Shown one piece after another: positions 5,730 to 35,476 of a DNA stretch of 40,942 nt. Below the pieces are notes generated by a model. It did no database searches and was not told the DNA's origin. It saw nothing but the letters and a program-made list of their open reading frames with translations. The DNA comes from Spirochaetales bacterium (GTDB lineage: Bacteria; Spirochaetota; Spirochaetia; DSM-2461). Every line of letters begins with the position of its first letter. The stretch's first letter is position 1. A program made the translations under genes and the position numbers. The stretch lies in assembly GCA_028532905.1 (NCBI GenBank), contig JAQQAM010000276.1:1-40942 (forward strand), given 5' to 3'.

Positions 5730-6270
5730 TACCCTTTTCCTCCGCACCCTTAAAGACATTTTTTACATGACTGCGCTCTATGTAACACTCTACACCCTGA
5801 TCCGCATTCTTTTCCAGCGCCTTTGAGTATTCTTTCCGGGGGGGGAACCCGGGAGGCAGAAGTTCCAGCAGGGGTTCCAGCACAAAAGCCCGTTCCCTGA
5901 TACCGGGGTGAGGAACAGTGAGATGTTCATCCTGAAGATTCAGATCTCCAAACAGCAGGATATCCAGGTCCATGGTCCGGGGCCCCTTCGGGACCTCCTG
6001 GCTGCGGTCCCGGCCCAGCTGCTCCTCAACGGCATGCAGACGGACTAGAAGCTCATCCGCTGTACCTGAATAGGAGCCGGACACAACCATATTGAGAAAA
6101 AGAGGCTGATCCTCCACGATCATGGGCCGTGTTTCCCATACAGAAGAGAGTGAAACTCCGGCCAATATCCCCTCCAGAGAGTCGCAGGCCTTTCTCAAAT
6201 TGGCGAGCCGGTCTCCCCTGTTTGTACCGACTCCGATATAAACTGTGCTTTCCGGATGTTCTGTTTTCAG
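5722..6270 (-). CDS. folK: 2-amino-4-hydroxy-6-hydroxymethyldihydropteridine pyrophosphokinase
   Basis: Transfers pyrophosphate from ATP to 6-hydroxymethyl-7,8-dihydropterin in folate synthesis. The family motifs are present: [16 protein letters not shown] at the N-terminus, VSSVWET-type strand, and [12 protein letters not shown], which supplies the metal-binding aspartates, followed by [16 protein letters not shown]. The frame has no ATG, GTG or TTG ahead of the N-terminal strand. The only such codon (TTG 6198) would delete it. A CTG at 6270 overlaps the recA stop (CTGA) and has AAGGAGG 7 nt upstream, inside the recA 3' end, so I propose CTG as the start (182 residues). No other folate gene is nearby. 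Confidence 0.88.
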
Positions 6271-28043: not shown

Positions 28044-29168
28044 CTACCACCTGATGGAGCGGCCGTTGTCTGCCAGTCGGCTGCTCAGATATTCTTTATC
28101 CAGCTTCAGTTCGTCTGCCAGCTGAATAAACAGATCTGTTGAAACCAGATTCTGCTCTACAAACAAGTATAAAAGAGCTTTCTCGGCAATACAGGGAACT
28201 TTCAGAGAATTCATAATAACCTGAGAATGGCTGAACCCCTCCTCCTGTTCATCCAGAATGCTGGCATAGAGCTGGGACTCCTTTACATTTTCTGCCAGAT
28301 GGATCAACTCTCTTCTCAGGGGTTCCGGATTCCCTGCAGCCGCAGCTTCTCCCAGGGGTTTAAGGGTGAAATAGGTATAGACTTTACCGGGGAGAAAATG
28401 GTGATGGTCACAGCGGGTGCAGTAGTTCGGCTCCCGGGGATCATCCTTTTTCATATCTCCCCCGATTATGATCAGAGGATCAAAATAGAGCGCAGGGCAT
28501 TCCTGCCCCTTCACGGAGTAATAGCGGTATGTATAAAAACTGTCCTGAATACAGTCCGAATGCTCACAGTAGGCTGTCAGAGGATAAACATCAGTAGCGG
28601 TTTCAATCAGCAGACGGGCTGTGGAATTGAAGATATCTCTTCTGAAGTTGAGTATAAGAGTGGGATACACAAAGACAAGATCCCTTTTTTCCGATGCATT
28701 CTTGATAACATAGGCCATCCTTTCATCAAAGAAGGAGGCTTCATCAATAATCCAGGTTCCCATCTGAGGAAAATCATCAATCAGTTTCTCAAGATCGAAG
28801 GAATTTCTGATTTTGGCAATGTTGTTTCCCAGCCGTTCATAACCGCCCCGGTAGGCAAGAGCGTCATCCGGATACTCTTCAAAACGTTTTTCATCCAGGG
28901 CGGACCGGACAAAGAAAACATTCCGTCTGTCGGCTTCTCCCGAACGGGTCAGATCGGCCACAATATCCGACTTTTCCAGAGTCACCCTGGCATCCCGCCA
29001 GATCCGGGCGGAATACTCTGTTTTACCAGAGCCCATGGGACCGATAACAAGGATTCTTCTTCCGGGCTTTGTAAAATCAAAATGGCCGTAGGACTGATGC
29101 ACTCTAATTTCCGGAAAACCGAGACTCTTGAGAAAATCACCCGATTCCGTATCCGTTTTATTACCCAT
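28044..29168 (-). CDS. Divergent thymidine kinase-like protein with C-terminal extension
   Basis: Residues ~36-262 match type II thymidine kinases: P-loop GPMGSGKTEY (43-50), Walker B/catalytic WIIDEASFFDE (142-147, DEASFF), and a Cys pair Cys201/Cys206 with a second pair Cys250/Cys253 (YCTRC) where the zinc finger of TK1 lies. It differs in having a 35-residue N-terminal extension and ~110 extra C-terminal residues that are helical and not in TK1. The family would phosphorylate thymidine with ATP. With a glycine in place of the usual Phe in the P-loop, a different substrate is conceivable. I chose ATG 29168 because AAGGA lies 9 nt upstream; ATG 29177 touches it. It heads the operon with sdaA, deoC and deoB. 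Confidence 0.8.
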   Translation of the reverse strand: MGNKTDTESGDFLKSLGFPEIRVHQSYGHFDFTKPGRRILVIGPMGSGKTEYSARIWRDARVTLEKSDIVADLTRSGEADRRNVFFVRSALDEKRFEEYPDDALAYRGGYERLGNNIAKIRNSFDLEKLIDDFPQMGTWIIDEASFFDERMAYVIKNASEKRDLVFVYPTLILNFRRDIFNSTARLLIETATDVYPLTAYCEHSDCIQDSFYTYRYYSVKGQECPALYFDPLIIIGGDMKKDDPREPNYCTRCDHHHFLPGKVYTYFTLKPLGEAAAAGNPEPLRRELIHLAENVKESQLYASILDEQEEGFSHSQVIMNSLKVPCIAEKALLYLFVEQNLVSTDLFIQLADELKLDKEYLSSRLADNGRSIRW

Positions 29169-29410
29169 AAGAAGCATTCCTTTTTCTGTATTTTATCGTG
29201 TTCCCGCAGCCCTTAAAATATATCCCCTTACAGGATCAAGCTGCAATCAGTGTACACAGGGAGATGAATAATAACATTGCCTGTAAGCCTGAAGCAATGA
29301 TTTCAGAAAGATTCTCCCGTAAAACTACAAAAAGAAGACAGCTTCCATTAAATTCAGTTTAACATTAACCGATTATACAATAAGGACAACTATGTATAAG
29401 AAGGAAAACA

Positions 29411-31921
29411 ATGAATAAGAGTATAAAGCTGTTTGGATTATCTCTGATACTTATCCTGTCACTGACATCGTGTATGACTGCACCGGAAGTTGTGGAAGAA
29501 CCGGAACCTCAGATTGAGGAAGAGAATAGTAATGACAGTCTTCATTCTCTGGTTCAGAACAGAAATACGGCCGGGCTGGAAGAGCTCTTTAAAATAAATG
29601 TTGATGTAAATGAGCGCAATGCAGACGGACAGACCGCTCTGCATGTTGCAGCTCAGGCCGGGAACAGCGAGATAGCCAGGCTCCTGCTTTTTCAGAAAGC
29701 TGATCCCGATGCCCTGGATAACAACGGAAAGACTCCTCTCCATCTGGCTATGGCAGGGGGACATGATGAAACCGTATCCGTTCTGGTGGAAGGCGGTGCG
29801 GATATCTATGTAAAAGATCAGAGCAGTCAGAGCCCTGTGGAAAGCGGTTTCGGTAACATCAGCCTGATTAAAGCCATGGTCAGAAAACAGAATGTCAACA
29901 GCGGGACCGTTGCAGAGGGCACCCTGCTCCATAAAGCCGCGGCTTCTGGCAATATTGATGCGGCTGAGTACATTCTGGCCATGGGAGGAAATCCCAACAT
30001 AACAAACAATGCCGGCAAACTGCCCCTGGATATGGCCCATGAAGACCGGATCAGCAGGGACAAAGCTAAGATTGCCTCTCTTCTGGTCAAAGCAGGATCT
30101 TTCAGAGCAGAAAATGAGAAATATGCCTATTTTCACACCCTCTACAGCCAGAACGACATCAATTACAGATTTGATTTCAGTCAGACAGCCCTCCATCTGG
30201 CAGCGGAACAGGGTCATGAAGGTGTGCTGAGCCTCCTTATGGAAGAAGGGGCGGATCTGGATGCCAGAGATAAACCGGGCAATACCGCTCTTCACAGTGC
30301 TGTACGGGGGGGATATAAAAACATTGTCACCATGCTTCTCAATGCCGGGGCTGATGTGAATGCAACAGACTACAACAGCAATGTGCCTCTTCATATGGCC
30401 ATGACCCATGACAATGACACAGAGATCCTCAGAATACTCCTTTCTGCAGGAGCCGATGTAAATGCCAAAAATAGCTTTGGCAATACGGCACTCCACCTCA
30501 GTGTCACACTGAACAAGGAGAGAACAGCAGCTGAATATATTCTGGATTACGGTGCCCAGCTGGAAAGCCGGAACAAAAACGGCAATACCCCTCTTATGGA
30601 AGCAGTGGACAGAGGAAACTCTGAAGTGGCCATCCTCCTTTTACAGAGAGGAGCTGATATCTTTGCCAGAAACAACCTGAGTGAAACACCTATCAGCATG
30701 AGTCTGACACGGGGTGTCCCTACACTGAGCTGGTTTATGGACAGCAGCAATATAAATGCCCAGGATAATGAAGGAAACACCTCTCTTCATATGGCCGTCC
30801 TGATGGGTGTGAATGCTGATGTGTACCGTTTTCTCCTGGAAAACGGTGCCGGAATCGACACAAGAAACTATTCCGGTGATACCCCCATGCATCTGGCTGT
30901 ACGAAAAGAGATCACGACTCTCACTTCCGAGTTTCTCAAGAAAGGCGGCGATTTTTATATTGAAAACAACCGGGGAGAAACACCCCTGTCTCTGGCCTTT
31001 GATAAGGGACCGGATTTTGTGGATGCCTTTCTGATCGATCAGGTACTGGAAAAGAAAGACAGCATGAACTACACCCCCCTCTTCCACGCGGTTCTCTGGG
31101 AAAAACCGGATATTGTCCGTGTTCTTATCGACAGAGGGGCCGATATAAACCGCATGAGTCTCACCGGGTCTACTGTACTGCACGAAGCGGTAAAAACAGG
31201 ATCGGTACAGATCACGGGAATACTTCTGAGAGCCGGAGCGGATGTTAACAAGACGGACAACAACGGAAATACGGCTTTGCATGAGATTGTTTACTGGAAT
31301 TCCCTGAACCTGGCAGAGCTTCTTATCGATTCCGGTGCCGATCTGAACCGCAAAAACCTGCTGGGACGATCTCCCTTCTACGAAGCCGTCATCAATGGAG
31401 ACTTTGAAATGTGCAGTTATCTGATCAAGCAGGGTGCTGATCTAGAAACAAGAGACAACAGCGGCAAGACTCCTTTATTTGAAACTATTATTTCCGGGAA
31501 TCCGGCACTTATGGAACTTCTGGTCAGCCAGGGCAGCTCCATTCAGAAAAGGGACAATCAGGGGAATACCCCTCTCCATGCAGCAGTTATTGTGGACAAT
31601 ACGGAAGCCGTGGAGTATCTGTTTAATCTGAATGCCGATATATTCGCTACCAATAAAAACAATGCCTCTCCCCTGACTCTGGTCATACGGAAAGGCTCAG
31701 AATATGTGGATGCCTTTATGACACTGGAAAATATCAATGCCAGGGACAATAACGGCAACACAGCCCTTCATATTGCCGCTGCCATGAAAGCGTCTGTGGG
31801 AACCCTGCAGGTTCTTATTGACAAAGGCGGGGACAAAGAAGCCAGAAACAATAAGGGACAGCGCCCCTATGACAGAGCAGTGGAAAGCAGATACGAAGCT
31901 GGTCTGGATATTCTGAAATAA
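29411..31921 (+). CDS. Large ankyrin-repeat lipoprotein
   Basis: An 836-residue protein with a lipoprotein signal peptide (LSLILILSLTSC; Cys21) followed by an acidic Pro/Glu linker (about 22-42). About 23-24 ankyrin repeats then fill the protein to its end (e.g. GNTALHSAVRGGYKNIVTMLLNAGADVNATD). Most are 33 residues. Four units starting near residues 140, 425, 523 and 752 are shorter (about 31) and share the pattern SPLTLVIRKGSEYVDAFM-like, breaking the array. Such long tracts make a solenoid that binds protein partners. The protein should sit on the membrane, facing the periplasm or outside. AAGGA precedes the ATG by 5 nt. Its terminator is shared with udk. Confidence 0.93.
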   Translation: MNKSIKLFGLSLILILSLTSCMTAPEVVEEPEPQIEEENSNDSLHSLVQNRNTAGLEELFKINVDVNERNADGQTALHVAAQAGNSEIARLLLFQKADPDALDNNGKTPLHLAMAGGHDETVSVLVEGGADIYVKDQSSQSPVESGFGNISLIKAMVRKQNVNSGTVAEGTLLHKAAASGNIDAAEYILAMGGNPNITNNAGKLPLDMAHEDRISRDKAKIASLLVKAGSFRAENEKYAYFHTLYSQNDINYRFDFSQTALHLAAEQGHEGVLSLLMEEGADLDARDKPGNTALHSAVRGGYKNIVTMLLNAGADVNATDYNSNVPLHMAMTHDNDTEILRILLSAGADVNAKNSFGNTALHLSVTLNKERTAAEYILDYGAQLESRNKNGNTPLMEAVDRGNSEVAILLLQRGADIFARNNLSETPISMSLTRGVPTLSWFMDSSNINAQDNEGNTSLHMAVLMGVNADVYRFLLENGAGIDTRNYSGDTPMHLAVRKEITTLTSEFLKKGGDFYIENNRGETPLSLAFDKGPDFVDAFLIDQVLEKKDSMNYTPLFHAVLWEKPDIVRVLIDRGADINRMSLTGSTVLHEAVKTGSVQITGILLRAGADVNKTDNNGNTALHEIVYWNSLNLAELLIDSGADLNRKNLLGRSPFYEAVINGDFEMCSYLIKQGADLETRDNSGKTPLFETIISGNPALMELLVSQGSSIQKRDNQGNTPLHAAVIVDNTEAVEYLFNLNADIFATNKNNASPLTLVIRKGSEYVDAFMTLENINARDNNGNTALHIAAAMKASVGTLQVLIDKGGDKEARNNKGQRPYDRAVESRYEAGLDILK

Positions 31922-31994: not shown

Positions 31995-32612
31995 TTATTT
32001 CCGTTCCACAGTCTCTTTGATAAAGGCGGAGAGAACCTGAAGGGCATTCATATTCATACCGCCCTCAGGAATAATAATATCCGCATAGCTCTTGGTTGGT
32101 TCAATAAACTCGAAATGACCGGGACGCACCACATCCATATACTGTTTGATAACAGATTCCTGAGTTCTCCCCCGCTCATTCACATCCCTCTGAAGGCGCC
32201 GGATAAAACGGATATCATCGGGTGTGTCGACAAAGATTTTCAGATCCATCAGGTCACGGATATCTTTTTCATAAAATACCATGATCCCCTCAAAGATAAT
32301 GACTTTTTTGGGAGTGACCTCTACAGTTTCATCCATCCTTCTGTGCTTGACAAAATCATACTTCGGCATCTGTATGGCCTTGCCGTTCTTCAGATCTGTA
32401 AGATGCTGCATCATAAGATCCTTGTCAAAGGCATTGGGATGATCAAAGTTGAACTCCGTAATATTACTGTTGGTAATAAACTCGGCAGATTTATAGTAAT
32501 TATCCTGGGGAATAAAGACAAAGTCTTCAATGGATTCCGAAATTTTCCGGACAATGGTTGTCTTCCCCGACCCGGAGCCACCGGAAATACCTATTATCTT
32601 TGGTTTATCCAT
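31995..32612 (-). CDS. udk: Uridine kinase
   Basis: Phosphorylates uridine and cytidine to UMP and CMP. The 205-residue protein has the P-loop GGSGSGKTT (11-19), then the Udk segment [31 protein letters not shown] with the substrate-binding Tyr/Asp residues, [44 protein letters not shown] (lid arginines) and a final strand region. The start is ATG 32612, with AAAGGAG 6 nt upstream. The frame extends to 32639 without a better site. It follows the HExxH protein gene by 55 bp and may be co-transcribed with it. It adds pyrimidine nucleoside salvage to the importer and deo genes elsewhere in the window. Confidence 0.94.
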
Positions 32613-32667
32613 AATCATCTCCTTTTTCTGTTCCGTCATAGTTCTGCCGGCTCAAAGACAGCTGATA

Positions 32668-33477
32668 TTATTCGCCGTCTTCCTCGACCTTGGCCTCTTC
32701 AATCTGCATTTCCAGATCTGCCAGTTTCACCTGCATGGACTGAATACTCTTCTCAATCCTTTTCTTCTGAGACTCAAGACGCTTCAAAGTCATCACCGGT
32801 TCCGGTTTTTCCTGACGGATCGCCTGCTTCACCATATCCTGACTCTGTCCGTCCTTGAAAGCCTGCTCCATCTCTTTCCGTTTCTGGGGTTCCTTCACTC
32901 CGGAAACGATTTTCATATTTTCGTAACCGATTTCAGGGTCCACATCCATGGCATAAACTTTCATAATGGATTTGGCCGAGTTTCTGTTCATTCCCAGTGC
33001 CCGGTCGACATAGTCTTCAAAAATAGCATGGTTCTGCTGGCAAAGATCCAGCGCCTGTATCAAAAGCTTTCCGAAATCTTTCATAACCTTGCCGTTTACA
33101 GAGAGATACTTACTCTTGATTTCTGAAGTCAGTTCCTTGAAGCGGTTGTCTTCCTCAAATACATTGATATAGATTCCCAGCTCTTCCGCCTTGCTCAGGA
33201 GTCTGTGGAATATATCCCAGAACAGCACCGTATGGGAGCGCATGGTGACCTGCCCCTCATGCTGTGTAAACTGAATATGATGGGCAAACTCGTGAATTGC
33301 CGTATAGACAAGGGCATTGTCATCTGTAAAGTTTTTATTATGGATTATGATTTCCTGTTTCTCCGGATGATACAGACCATCGACCTTCTTACTGGTTTTA
33401 CCGGAAAAGACAAGATCGAAATCCACAACGGTGTTGTCAATCTGAAGTAATTTTTCCTTAACCTGTTCCTGATTCAT
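32668..33477 (-). CDS. Putative zinc metallopeptidase-like (HExxH) protein, function unknown
   Basis: A 269-residue protein with no signal peptide. Residues ~1-100 resemble a small zincin: TAIHEFAHHIQFTQHEG gives HEFAH (His62, Glu63, His66), with His73 six residues after the HExxH as another possible ligand. Strand-like segments precede it (LVFSGKTSKKVDGLYHPEKQEIIIH). The middle is helical and the last ~65 residues are a charged coiled coil (LKRLESQKKRIEKSIQSMQVKLADLEMQIEE). I do not recognise the family and find no close parallel to named peptidases. Its activity is inferred only from the motif. It lies between the ABC-F gene (divergent) and udk. AGGAA precedes the ATG by 7 nt. Confidence 0.75.
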   Translation of the reverse strand: MNQEQVKEKLLQIDNTVVDFDLVFSGKTSKKVDGLYHPEKQEIIIHNKNFTDDNALVYTAIHEFAHHIQFTQHEGQVTMRSHTVLFWDIFHRLLSKAEELGIYINVFEEDNRFKELTSEIKSKYLSVNGKVMKDFGKLLIQALDLCQQNHAIFEDYVDRALGMNRNSAKSIMKVYAMDVDPEIGYENMKIVSGVKEPQKRKEMEQAFKDGQSQDMVKQAIRQEKPEPVMTLKRLESQKKRIEKSIQSMQVKLADLEMQIEEAKVEEDGE

Positions 33478-33598
33478 TCAATATTTCCTGTGTGTTTAAG
33501 TTTGAGTCCTACTCTAATGCCTGGCAGAAGATTTGTCCATATCTAAAGGCCTTACTAGTCCTTTTGAGACCCTCCATGATAGAATCATTCTCAAAATT

Positions 33599-35476
33599 AT
33601 GAATCTGATATCAATCGACAATATAAGTATAAACAGAGGCGGCAATAATCTTGTTGCCGGCAGTTCTTTCGGCATAGATTCGGAAGACAAAATTGCCCTG
33701 ATCGGAAGTAACGGCTGCGGAAAATCATCCCTTATTTCCGTTTTAACCGGAGATTCCGAGGCCGATGAGGGACAGGTGTCCAGGAACAATGAGCTTTATA
33801 TCAGCCGTGTGGAACAGCAGCCCTCCTTTTCGGATGAAGAAAGGGTACTGGATTTTATTTTCAAGGACCCCAGCAGACAGATGGAGCTGGTCCGGGACTA
33901 CGAACTCTGCAGCAGAAAGATGGAAGAGAATGCCCAGGATGAGGCTGTCCTTGAAGAATTCCATACTCTGACGGAGCAGATGGAAAAATGGAACTGCTGG
34001 GAGCTGGAAAGCCGTATCAAATCACTTCTCTCAGAGTTGAAGATCACCGATTTCAATGCGCCTATGAAATCCCTTTCCGGGGGTATGGTAAAAAAAGCCG
34101 CACTGGTACGAGCTCTGTGTCAGGATTACAATCTTCTGATTCTGGATGAGCCCACCAACCACCTGGATATCCCCACCATTGAATGGCTTCAGGAATACCT
34201 GATGAAATCGGACAAAGCCTTTCTTCTGGTAACCCATGACCGCTACTTTATGGAAAACATATGCAACAGGATACTGGAGATCGACGAACAGCAGGTATTC
34301 CAGTACAAAGGGAACTACTCCCGCTACCTGGACCAGAAAGCCCTGCGCCAGAATATTGAAAACCGCCGGCAAGCCCGAATTGAGTCCATTCTCCGTCAGG
34401 AACTGAAATGGATCAGCCGGGGCCCCAGAGCCCGTGCGGGTAAGGATAAAAAGCGGACGGCCAATTTCTACAATCTGATGGATGAGAAAAGCCGGGATGC
34501 CGTGAGCAGCGCCGAGTTCAGCTCCAGCTTCAGACGCCTGGGAAAAAAGATTCTCCATCTGAAGAATATTGAGTTCTCCTATGGTGAGAAGAAAGTCATC
34601 AACCCTTTTACCTACCAGTTCCGCAGGGGTGAGCGGATTGGACTGATTGGCCCTAACGGTTCGGGAAAAACAACCCTGCTGAATCTGATCAGCGGGGCTC
34701 TTACACCGGAAGCCGGGAGCATAGACATGGGGATCAATACCCATATCGGTTACTTTGATCAGACCGGTTCAGTTCTGAAAAGCGATATGAAGGTCATGGA
34801 ATATCTCCATGAGCATGCAGAAAAGATTACCCTGGCAGACGGAAGTATTCTGACGCCCTCCCAGCTGCTGGAGCGTTTCTTGTTCCCCAAATCCCTGTAC
34901 TATACTCCTCTGGGAGATATTTCAGGCGGTGAACGGAGACGACTTTATCTGATCAGGATTCTTCTGAGCAATCCGAACTTTCTCCTTTTCGATGAGCCTA
35001 CCAACGATCTGGACCTGCAGACACTGACCATGCTGGAAGATTACCTGATGGACTTTCCCGGCTGCCTGATGCTTGTATCCCACGACCGGTATTTCCTGGA
35101 CAGGGTTACGGATTTTCAGTTTGTTTTCGATACCAGCGGGACGATTCACGGATTCTCGGGAACCTACAGCGAGTACAAAGCCCTGCTCAGTGAACAGAAA
35201 AGCACAGAGACTGCCGCCGCGCCTAAAAAGGAAAACCGGCAGGTCATACAGAGGGAAAGAAAACTCAGCTATAAAGAAAAAACCGAATATGAGGGGATGG
35301 AAGAGTATATTCTTGATCTGGAAGGCCGTATTGAGGAGAAGGAAGCTGCCTTTTCCGCCCCCGGATTCGATCCCGAATCAGCAGGGGCACTGACAGCTGA
35401 GTACGATGCTCTCAAGCAGGAACTGGAAGAAAAGTATGCCCGATGGGAGGAACTCTCCCGTCTTGCGGGAGATTAA
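33599..35476 (+). CDS. ABC-F ATPase, Uup-like
   Basis: A 625-residue soluble protein with two ABC domains and no membrane segments. NBD1 has Walker A GSNGCGKS (36-43), signature LSGGM (159-163) and Walker B LLILDEPTNHLD. NBD2 has GPNGSGKTT (351-359), ISGGERRRLYLIRILL and LLFDEPTNDLD. The linker contains ELKWISRGPRARAGKDKKR, typical of Uup. A C-terminal coiled coil, also a Uup feature (about 560-620), is present. ABC-F proteins act on ribosomes or, for Uup, affect DNA and ribosome quality. I set the start at ATG 33599, which begins the usual MNLISIDNISI sequence. A TTG at 33533 lacks any site. No Shine-Dalgarno is clear. The stop shares 4 bp with the dac gene (TTAA). Confidence 0.9.
   Translation: MNLISIDNISINRGGNNLVAGSSFGIDSEDKIALIGSNGCGKSSLISVLTGDSEADEGQVSRNNELYISRVEQQPSFSDEERVLDFIFKDPSRQMELVRDYELCSRKMEENAQDEAVLEEFHTLTEQMEKWNCWELESRIKSLLSELKITDFNAPMKSLSGGMVKKAALVRALCQDYNLLILDEPTNHLDIPTIEWLQEYLMKSDKAFLLVTHDRYFMENICNRILEIDEQQVFQYKGNYSRYLDQKALRQNIENRRQARIESILRQELKWISRGPRARAGKDKKRTANFYNLMDEKSRDAVSSAEFSSSFRRLGKKILHLKNIEFSYGEKKVINPFTYQFRRGERIGLIGPNGSGKTTLLNLISGALTPEAGSIDMGINTHIGYFDQTGSVLKSDMKVMEYLHEHAEKITLADGSILTPSQLLERFLFPKSLYYTPLGDISGGERRRLYLIRILLSNPNFLLFDEPTNDLDLQTLTMLEDYLMDFPGCLMLVSHDRYFLDRVTDFQFVFDTSGTIHGFSGTYSEYKALLSEQKSTETAAAPKKENRQVIQRERKLSYKEKTEYEGMEEYILDLEGRIEEKEAAFSAPGFDPESAGALTAEYDALKQELEEKYARWEELSRLAGD

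Follow-up and report, generated by a model that had tools for sequence, protein, structure and literature searches.

The DNA examined here (the window, 40,942 nucleotides) makes up contig C276 in a spirochaete assembly of 4.98 Mb and 296 contigs. At positions 32668-33477, on the minus strand, it carries a gene for a 269-residue protein, P0001. The protein has three parts: an N-terminal domain with the fold of SprT/Wss1-like minimal metallopeptidases, a middle domain likely to have the DNA-binding fold of ParB and Noc, and a C-terminal coiled-coil helix. Relatives with this architecture and a conserved set of predicted metal ligands are found in spirochaete chromosomes, in viral contigs and in a conjugative element. 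With a little less than even confidence, and by analogy with SPRTN, we propose that P0001 is a cytoplasmic, DNA-targeted SPRTN/Spartan-like zinc metalloprotease, which would act on proteins crosslinked to DNA or persistently bound to it.

The N-terminal peptidase-like domain

An AlphaFold2 model of the full protein was built from 23 sequences (mean predicted local distance difference test score, pLDDT, 92.4; predicted template modelling score, pTM, 0.76). The model divides P0001 into residues 1-104, 131-225 and 231-267. Structural neighbours were identified using VIA-align. For residues 1-104 (33166-33477, minus strand) the best match was the SprT domain of human SPRTN (6mdx; Z 11.0, root-mean-square deviation 2.4 over 98 residues). 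The DNA-dependent protease Wss1 (5xbn, Z 9.8; 5jig, Z 9.1) and proabylysin (4jiu, Z 9.0) came next. By this comparison, residues 1-104 adopt the SprT peptidase fold. The initial annotation had proposed a zincin-like core on the strength of an HExxH motif, and the predicted fold bears this out.

The motif (HEFAH, residues 62-66; 33280-33294, minus strand) lies at the start of HEFAHHIQFTQH, which spans residues 62-73. Conservation was measured in an alignment of 142 loci, 141 of them matching; removal of 13 identical rows and 5 that were short or contained N left 123 distinct sequences. His62, His66, His67 and His82 are present in all 123, Glu63 in 121 and His91 in 116. Hence, the HExxH motif is not a chance occurrence. 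Its two histidines are predicted metal ligands and Glu63 the predicted catalytic residue. His82 (33232-33234, minus strand), which the initial annotation missed, is probably the third metal ligand, completing the pattern HExxH-x15-H-xxx-F. The gap between His66 and His82 is 15 residues in 97 of the 123 sequences and ranges from 13 to 24 overall. In a profile alignment with SprT, His82 stands in register with the histidine of RVHGPLF in spirochaete SprT. The three histidines expected of SprT-like proteins and SPRTN are thus found at His62, His66 and His82 in every homologue. According to PMC7213743, Spartan has a third histidine where ArdC uses a glutamate; the invariant His82 therefore points to the Spartan side. 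The fold and the metal-ligand pattern are well supported, and we infer from this that P0001 binds metal and is catalytically active.

Sequence comparisons point in the same direction at lower signal. Searches of Pfam and NCBIfam with P0001 returned nothing above a curated cut-off. Searches of PHROGs and of PDB sequences gave nothing strong, and a PDB profile search found only matches of the coiled-coil type. When 23 members of the family were compared with Pfam, the SprT-like model was matched below threshold by 16 at E ≤0.1 (best E 1.3e-5) and DUF6782, a putative metallopeptidase family, by 22. In profile-profile comparisons the N-terminal domain gave P 4.4e-5 against spirochaete SprT (three proteins) and 1.1e-4 against YgjP-like proteins; the ParB negative control gave 0.27. 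The family had been described as unknown, which is incomplete: its core can be recognised as SprT/SPRTN-like.

The middle domain and the coiled coil

Past residue 104 the model is entirely helical up to the middle domain. A long helix (residues 111-148 by DSSP) links the two domains; its first part, residues 111-130, is encoded by 33088-33147 (minus strand). The only strongly conserved cysteine in the alignment of 123 homologues is C146. The middle domain itself, which the initial annotation also missed, comprises residues 131-225 (32803-33087, minus strand) and is a ParB/Noc-type helix-turn-helix (HTH) by fold match in two predictions. In the full model the best match was Noc (7nfu; Z 9.9, root-mean-square deviation 2.0 over 91 residues), followed by a series of ParB/Spo0J structures. 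The region was also predicted alone, from 50 sequences (pLDDT 94.6). The first 12 matches were then all Noc, ParB or Spo0J, with Z from 9.7 to 7.2, although helical folds may reach such values without kinship. Lower rows held Raf1 (7.1, 6.2), SopB (6.0, 5.8) and P1-type ParB (5.1); other folds scored 4.5 or less. Judged from the models, residues 131-225 therefore likely have the DNA-binding fold of ParB and Noc. There is no N-terminal CTP-binding ParB domain in P0001; the SprT-like domain occupies that place.

The surface expected to read DNA was compared in 113 chromosomal copies. The recognition-helix segment has a mean net charge of +1.8. At R165 of P0001, Arg is found in 96 copies; at K173 and K189, Lys or Arg is found in 103 and 111. 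In ParB, the residues that contact parS include K171, S172, R173, N178 and G201, as given in PMC7383237. Mapping by eye, the equivalents of R173 (R165 of P0001) and G201 (G184, 112 of 113 copies) are retained. Taking structure and sequence together, a ParB-type fold is likely for this domain and recognition of parS is not. Descent of the domain from ParB is unproven. We gave up a claim of ParB homology at the sequence level and make one for the fold only. P0001 would nevertheless be expected to bind DNA through this domain.

The C-terminal coiled coil noted in the initial annotation is present in the AlphaFold2 model, as a single charged helix at residues 231-267 (32677-32787, minus strand). 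Within it, L234 and L252 are conserved in 98% and 97% of the 123 homologues. As modelled, the helix probably mediates self-association or dimerisation.

Chromosomal and mobile copies of the gene

The in-depth search for homologues covered Spirochaetota. A protein search found the family in 177 of 392 genomes, treponemes included. Of the 327 genomes with completeness ≥90% and contamination ≤5%, 161 have it. A profile search again gave 177 genomes. Among the matches listed, the weakest best E-value for any genome was 4.8e-46; presence and absence are thus cleanly separated. Genomes without the gene include, among those shown, family f5 (0.9 to 1.8 Mb), f12 and a treponeme relative of 1.1 Mb. Most genomes that hold the gene have a single copy. 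The suggestion that the protein may be specific to spirochaetes stands for cellular copies: a scan of 84,980 species for close relatives found 16 loci, all in Spirochaetota. It does not extend to the relatives in viral contigs and a conjugative element.

Canonical SprT was detected, at E 1e-8 or better, in 8 of the 392 genomes. The present family is therefore far commoner in this sample. At least four of the eight (G150, G197, G232 and G370) also carry the family gene, and three relatives with a clear SprT hold it too. Replacement of canonical SprT by the family gene is not shown by these data, since the two coexist in some genomes and no mutual exclusion was seen.

No relative was found in viral contigs when P0001 was used as a single sequence. 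When the alignment was used, six contigs had relatives that align across almost the full length of the protein at 35-43% identity. By eye, all six have the HExxH motif. Phage records gave no match to the family, and plasmid records one weak match (Priestia, 33% coverage, E 1e-2). In the parts of the viral contigs that were read, L233 and L235 each encode a terminase large subunit and DNA methyltransferases, L232 a replisome organiser and L234 a dUTPase. In L233, a gene for a 62-residue XRE-like HTH protein (5816-6004) and the beginning of the phage copy have 4 bp in common (by eye), an arrangement like that of repressor-protease pairs.

Genome G366 has three near-identical copies (L221-L223) in a repeated conjugative element, two in contig C1 and one in the 28-kb contig C2. 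Two stretches of the element are identical (100%) over 11,886 bases. The genes around the SprT-like gene encode ParA, a single-stranded DNA-binding protein (SSB), a relaxase-like protein, a type IV secretion system coupling protein and a T2SSE/VirB11-type ATPase. SSB genes also lie near several further mobile copies (by eye). ParA and a ParB-like gene are upstream of the family copy; the ParB-like protein was named by eye and had no Pfam match naming ParB at E 0.01. We considered whether the element has a split ParB of which the family protein is the DNA-binding half. This was dropped, as the neighbours P0002-P0004 look like ParB with an HTH of their own (by eye).

In a tree of 131 rows, chromosomal copies group broadly by host family. 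The 15 rows labelled mobile require 4 changes, compared with 14.4 in shuffles; the label of L069 reflects divergence only, and L230 is labelled chromosomal though its neighbours look phage-like by eye. A single clade (support 100/100) unites five viral rows with a prophage-like copy. The placement of L070 and L071 is unsure owing to long branches. Mean identity between mobile and chromosomal copies (8 and 60 rows) was 0.45 for the N-terminal domain and 0.21 for the middle domain. Going by these sequences, it is as if the catalytic part were held constant in mobile copies while the DNA-reading part was re-tuned. Genome G402 has three family copies. One of them, L230, has antirepressor-like neighbours (by eye) and falls in the tree among chromosomal copies from the family to which the window belongs; it is possibly a recent transfer from host to phage.

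The start of P0001 in the window is an ATG, supported by an upstream Shine-Dalgarno-like AGGAAA (by eye) and by the N-terminus MNQ[DE]QVKEKLL conserved among homologues. Inspected by eye, the protein shows neither a signal peptide nor a membrane segment. The reading frame and both of its neighbours are exactly as first annotated. The uridine kinase gene udk (31995-32639, minus strand; NF004018, 287 bits against a cut-off of 180) begins 28 bp downstream. A divergent Uup-like ABC-F gene (33599-35476, plus strand) has a probable ATG at 33599, the longest open reading frame starting from a TTG at 33533. Its best NCBIfam model is Uup, at 491 bits and under that model's cut-off of 900. Context was compared for 30 of 37 loci, the remaining seven having lost their anchor gene, at least partly to longer ORFs that overlap it, and differs by lineage. 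The family gene lies beside udk in the window's family and downstream of an rsmE-looking gene (by eye) in treponemes and their relatives; in two loci of other origin, uvrB (named by eye) is upstream. A conserved operon partner was therefore rejected: neighbours vary with lineage and none is stable. Co-transcription of udk and the P0001 gene is likely in the window's lineage only. Elsewhere in the window, 28044-29177 (minus strand) encodes a 377-residue protein with only a partial thymidine kinase match (PF00265, residues 133-241, 33 bits). It is roughly twice as long as the PF00265 model and is conserved in two other loci of the 37. An 836-residue ankyrin-repeat protein is encoded by 29411-31921 (plus strand); 15 Ank stretches pass in Pfam and the N-terminus is lipoprotein-like (LTSC, by eye).

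Proposed function, alternatives and known systems

Taken together, a SPRTN-like peptidase joined to a DNA-binding fold, mostly in single copy and borrowed by mobile DNA, is best read as a protease for DNA-bound or crosslinked proteins. The mobile copies sit in settings of DNA metabolism, which favours this reading. In the mechanism we propose, the ParB/Noc-like domain would keep the protein on DNA and the coiled coil would probably dimerise it. His62, His66 and His82 would ligate the metal and Glu63 would activate water, allowing the SprT-like domain to cleave proteins that are crosslinked to DNA or remain bound to it persistently. In chromosomes the protein would serve genome maintenance as a housekeeping protease. 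Phage and conjugative copies would do this job on incoming or replicating DNA of the element.

Several observations weigh against this proposal. The mechanism is drawn by analogy. Foldseek E-values were weak, at best 0.1 for the full model and 1.1 for the middle domain alone, and P0001 scores below the Pfam gathering threshold for SprT-like (PF10263; 16.4 against 25.6 bits). The second zinc-binding subdomain of SPRTN is not visible in the AlphaFold2 model. Against 26 spirochaete ParBs the middle domain was not significant (hhalign P 0.2 and 0.14), the register being as expected. Most parS contacts are changed, with the positions of K171, S172 and N178 varying when mapped by eye. In the 30 loci compared, repair genes were not stably associated with the family gene. 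Lastly, two loci in two genomes of one genus (L062 and L063; G376 and G370) have HQxxH with all three histidines retained. Catalysis should be abolished there, and these copies are possibly pseudoenzymes. A short SprT-like match is also present at a separate place in the G370 genome.

A different reading, which we consider unlikely, is that P0001 is a regulatory protease like IrrE or ImmA. The HTH-type domain would take it to operators, and the peptidase would cut one specific repressor upon DNA damage or another signal. IrrE/PprI is among the structural matches of the peptidase domain and, according to PMC7213743, IrrE cleaves the repressor DdrO. Peptidase_M78 (PF06114) was matched below threshold by 7 of 23 members at E ≤0.1, and is absent from the matches of P0001 itself at E ≤1. 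The XRE-like HTH gene lies directly upstream of the family gene in L233 (by eye). However, SPRTN and Wss1 (Z 11.0 and 9.8) are clearly better matches than IrrE/PprI (8sln, Z 6.3; 3dte, Z 6.2), and the third ligand is apparently His rather than Glu. The L233 arrangement occurs in one of the six viral loci; by eye, no repressor-like gene directly adjoins the other five, nor does one do so consistently in chromosomes.

Less probable again is an origin as an ArdC-like establishment or counter-restriction factor, which would protect or clear DNA, single- or double-stranded, as it enters with a phage or conjugative element; the chromosomal copies would be domesticated. Phage and conjugative copies do exist, and SSB is encoded near the conjugative copy and, judged by eye, close to several of the other mobile ones. 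In addition ArdC, a plasmid DNA-binding metalloprotease, was found to resemble Spartan and IrrE in structure (PMC7213743), and the ArdC structure 6sna is among our Foldseek matches (probability 0.90). Conversely, the chromosomal form is found in many families and broadly follows them, whereas mobile copies make up a few nested, faster-evolving groups. This favours the reverse direction of transfer. Nor do the chromosomal loci viewed have a restriction system as a regular neighbour.

It is very unlikely that P0001 is a structural or partition protein whose peptidase fold only binds: the ParB/Noc-like domain, the ParA and ParB-like genes upstream of the conjugative copy and HQxxH in two genomes would fit, but Glu63 in 121 of 123 homologues and three histidines in all are unneeded for structure alone, the ParA-bearing elements have their own ParB-like protein (by eye) and the host has a standard ParB.

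Returning to the crosslink protease, dedicated enzymes of this kind are eukaryotic in those parts of the literature surveyed. If the proposal is true, protease-based crosslink repair in bacteria becomes directly testable, using a widely conserved candidate that has its own DNA-binding module and is also present in phages and conjugative elements. The proposal also offers a definite function, open to testing, for a protein of 177 of the 392 spirochaete genomes sampled, treponemes included. A bolder version, which is doubtful, is that the family is a phylum-wide bacterial counterpart of Spartan reached by a different route. Here, a SprT-type protease would have replaced the CTPase of a ParB/Noc-like protein, giving a DNA-tethered and possibly site-directed protease for crosslinks and roadblocks. 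Phages and conjugative elements would have taken it up repeatedly to clear their own DNA of proteins, which might include relaxases, topoisomerases or host blockers.

SprT with a ParB/Noc-like domain would be a new combination; a literature search, with most subscription journals and preprints outside its coverage, found no paper on it or on this spirochaete protein. With SPRTN/Spartan and Wss1, P0001 shares the minimal zincin fold, HExxH, the third histidine and the presence of a DNA-binding part on one chain with the peptidase. It differs in that no zinc-binding subdomain is visible, DNA binding would come from the ParB/Noc-like domain and sequence similarity is marginal. Bacterial SprT has the same HExxH-x15-H-xxx-F pattern and is similar by profile-profile comparison, but P0001 falls under the gathering score and has additional C-terminal DNA-binding and coiled-coil parts. 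ParB, Noc and Spo0J share the fold of residues 131-225 and the equivalents of R173 and G201. Unlike them, P0001 has a peptidase in place of the CTP-binding domain, mostly altered parS contacts and no significant sequence match. P0001 resembles IrrE/PprI and ImmA (M78) in joining a small zincin to an HTH-type domain. The structural match is weaker (Z about 6), however, the third ligand is apparently His rather than Glu and the HTH is of the ParB/Noc type. ArdC, the antirestriction protein of plasmid R388, likewise unites a DNA-binding domain with a Spartan-like metalloprotease on mobile DNA (PMC7213743). The order of the parts and the DNA-binding fold differ: P0001 has no match to ArdC-N, the N-terminal single-stranded DNA-binding domain, and starts directly with the peptidase domain. 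Finally, the polyvalent proteins of mobile elements, as described in PMC5512222, contain zincin domains whose second helix carries a Glu, together with DdrB-like ParB nuclease domains, both of which differ from the domains of P0001.
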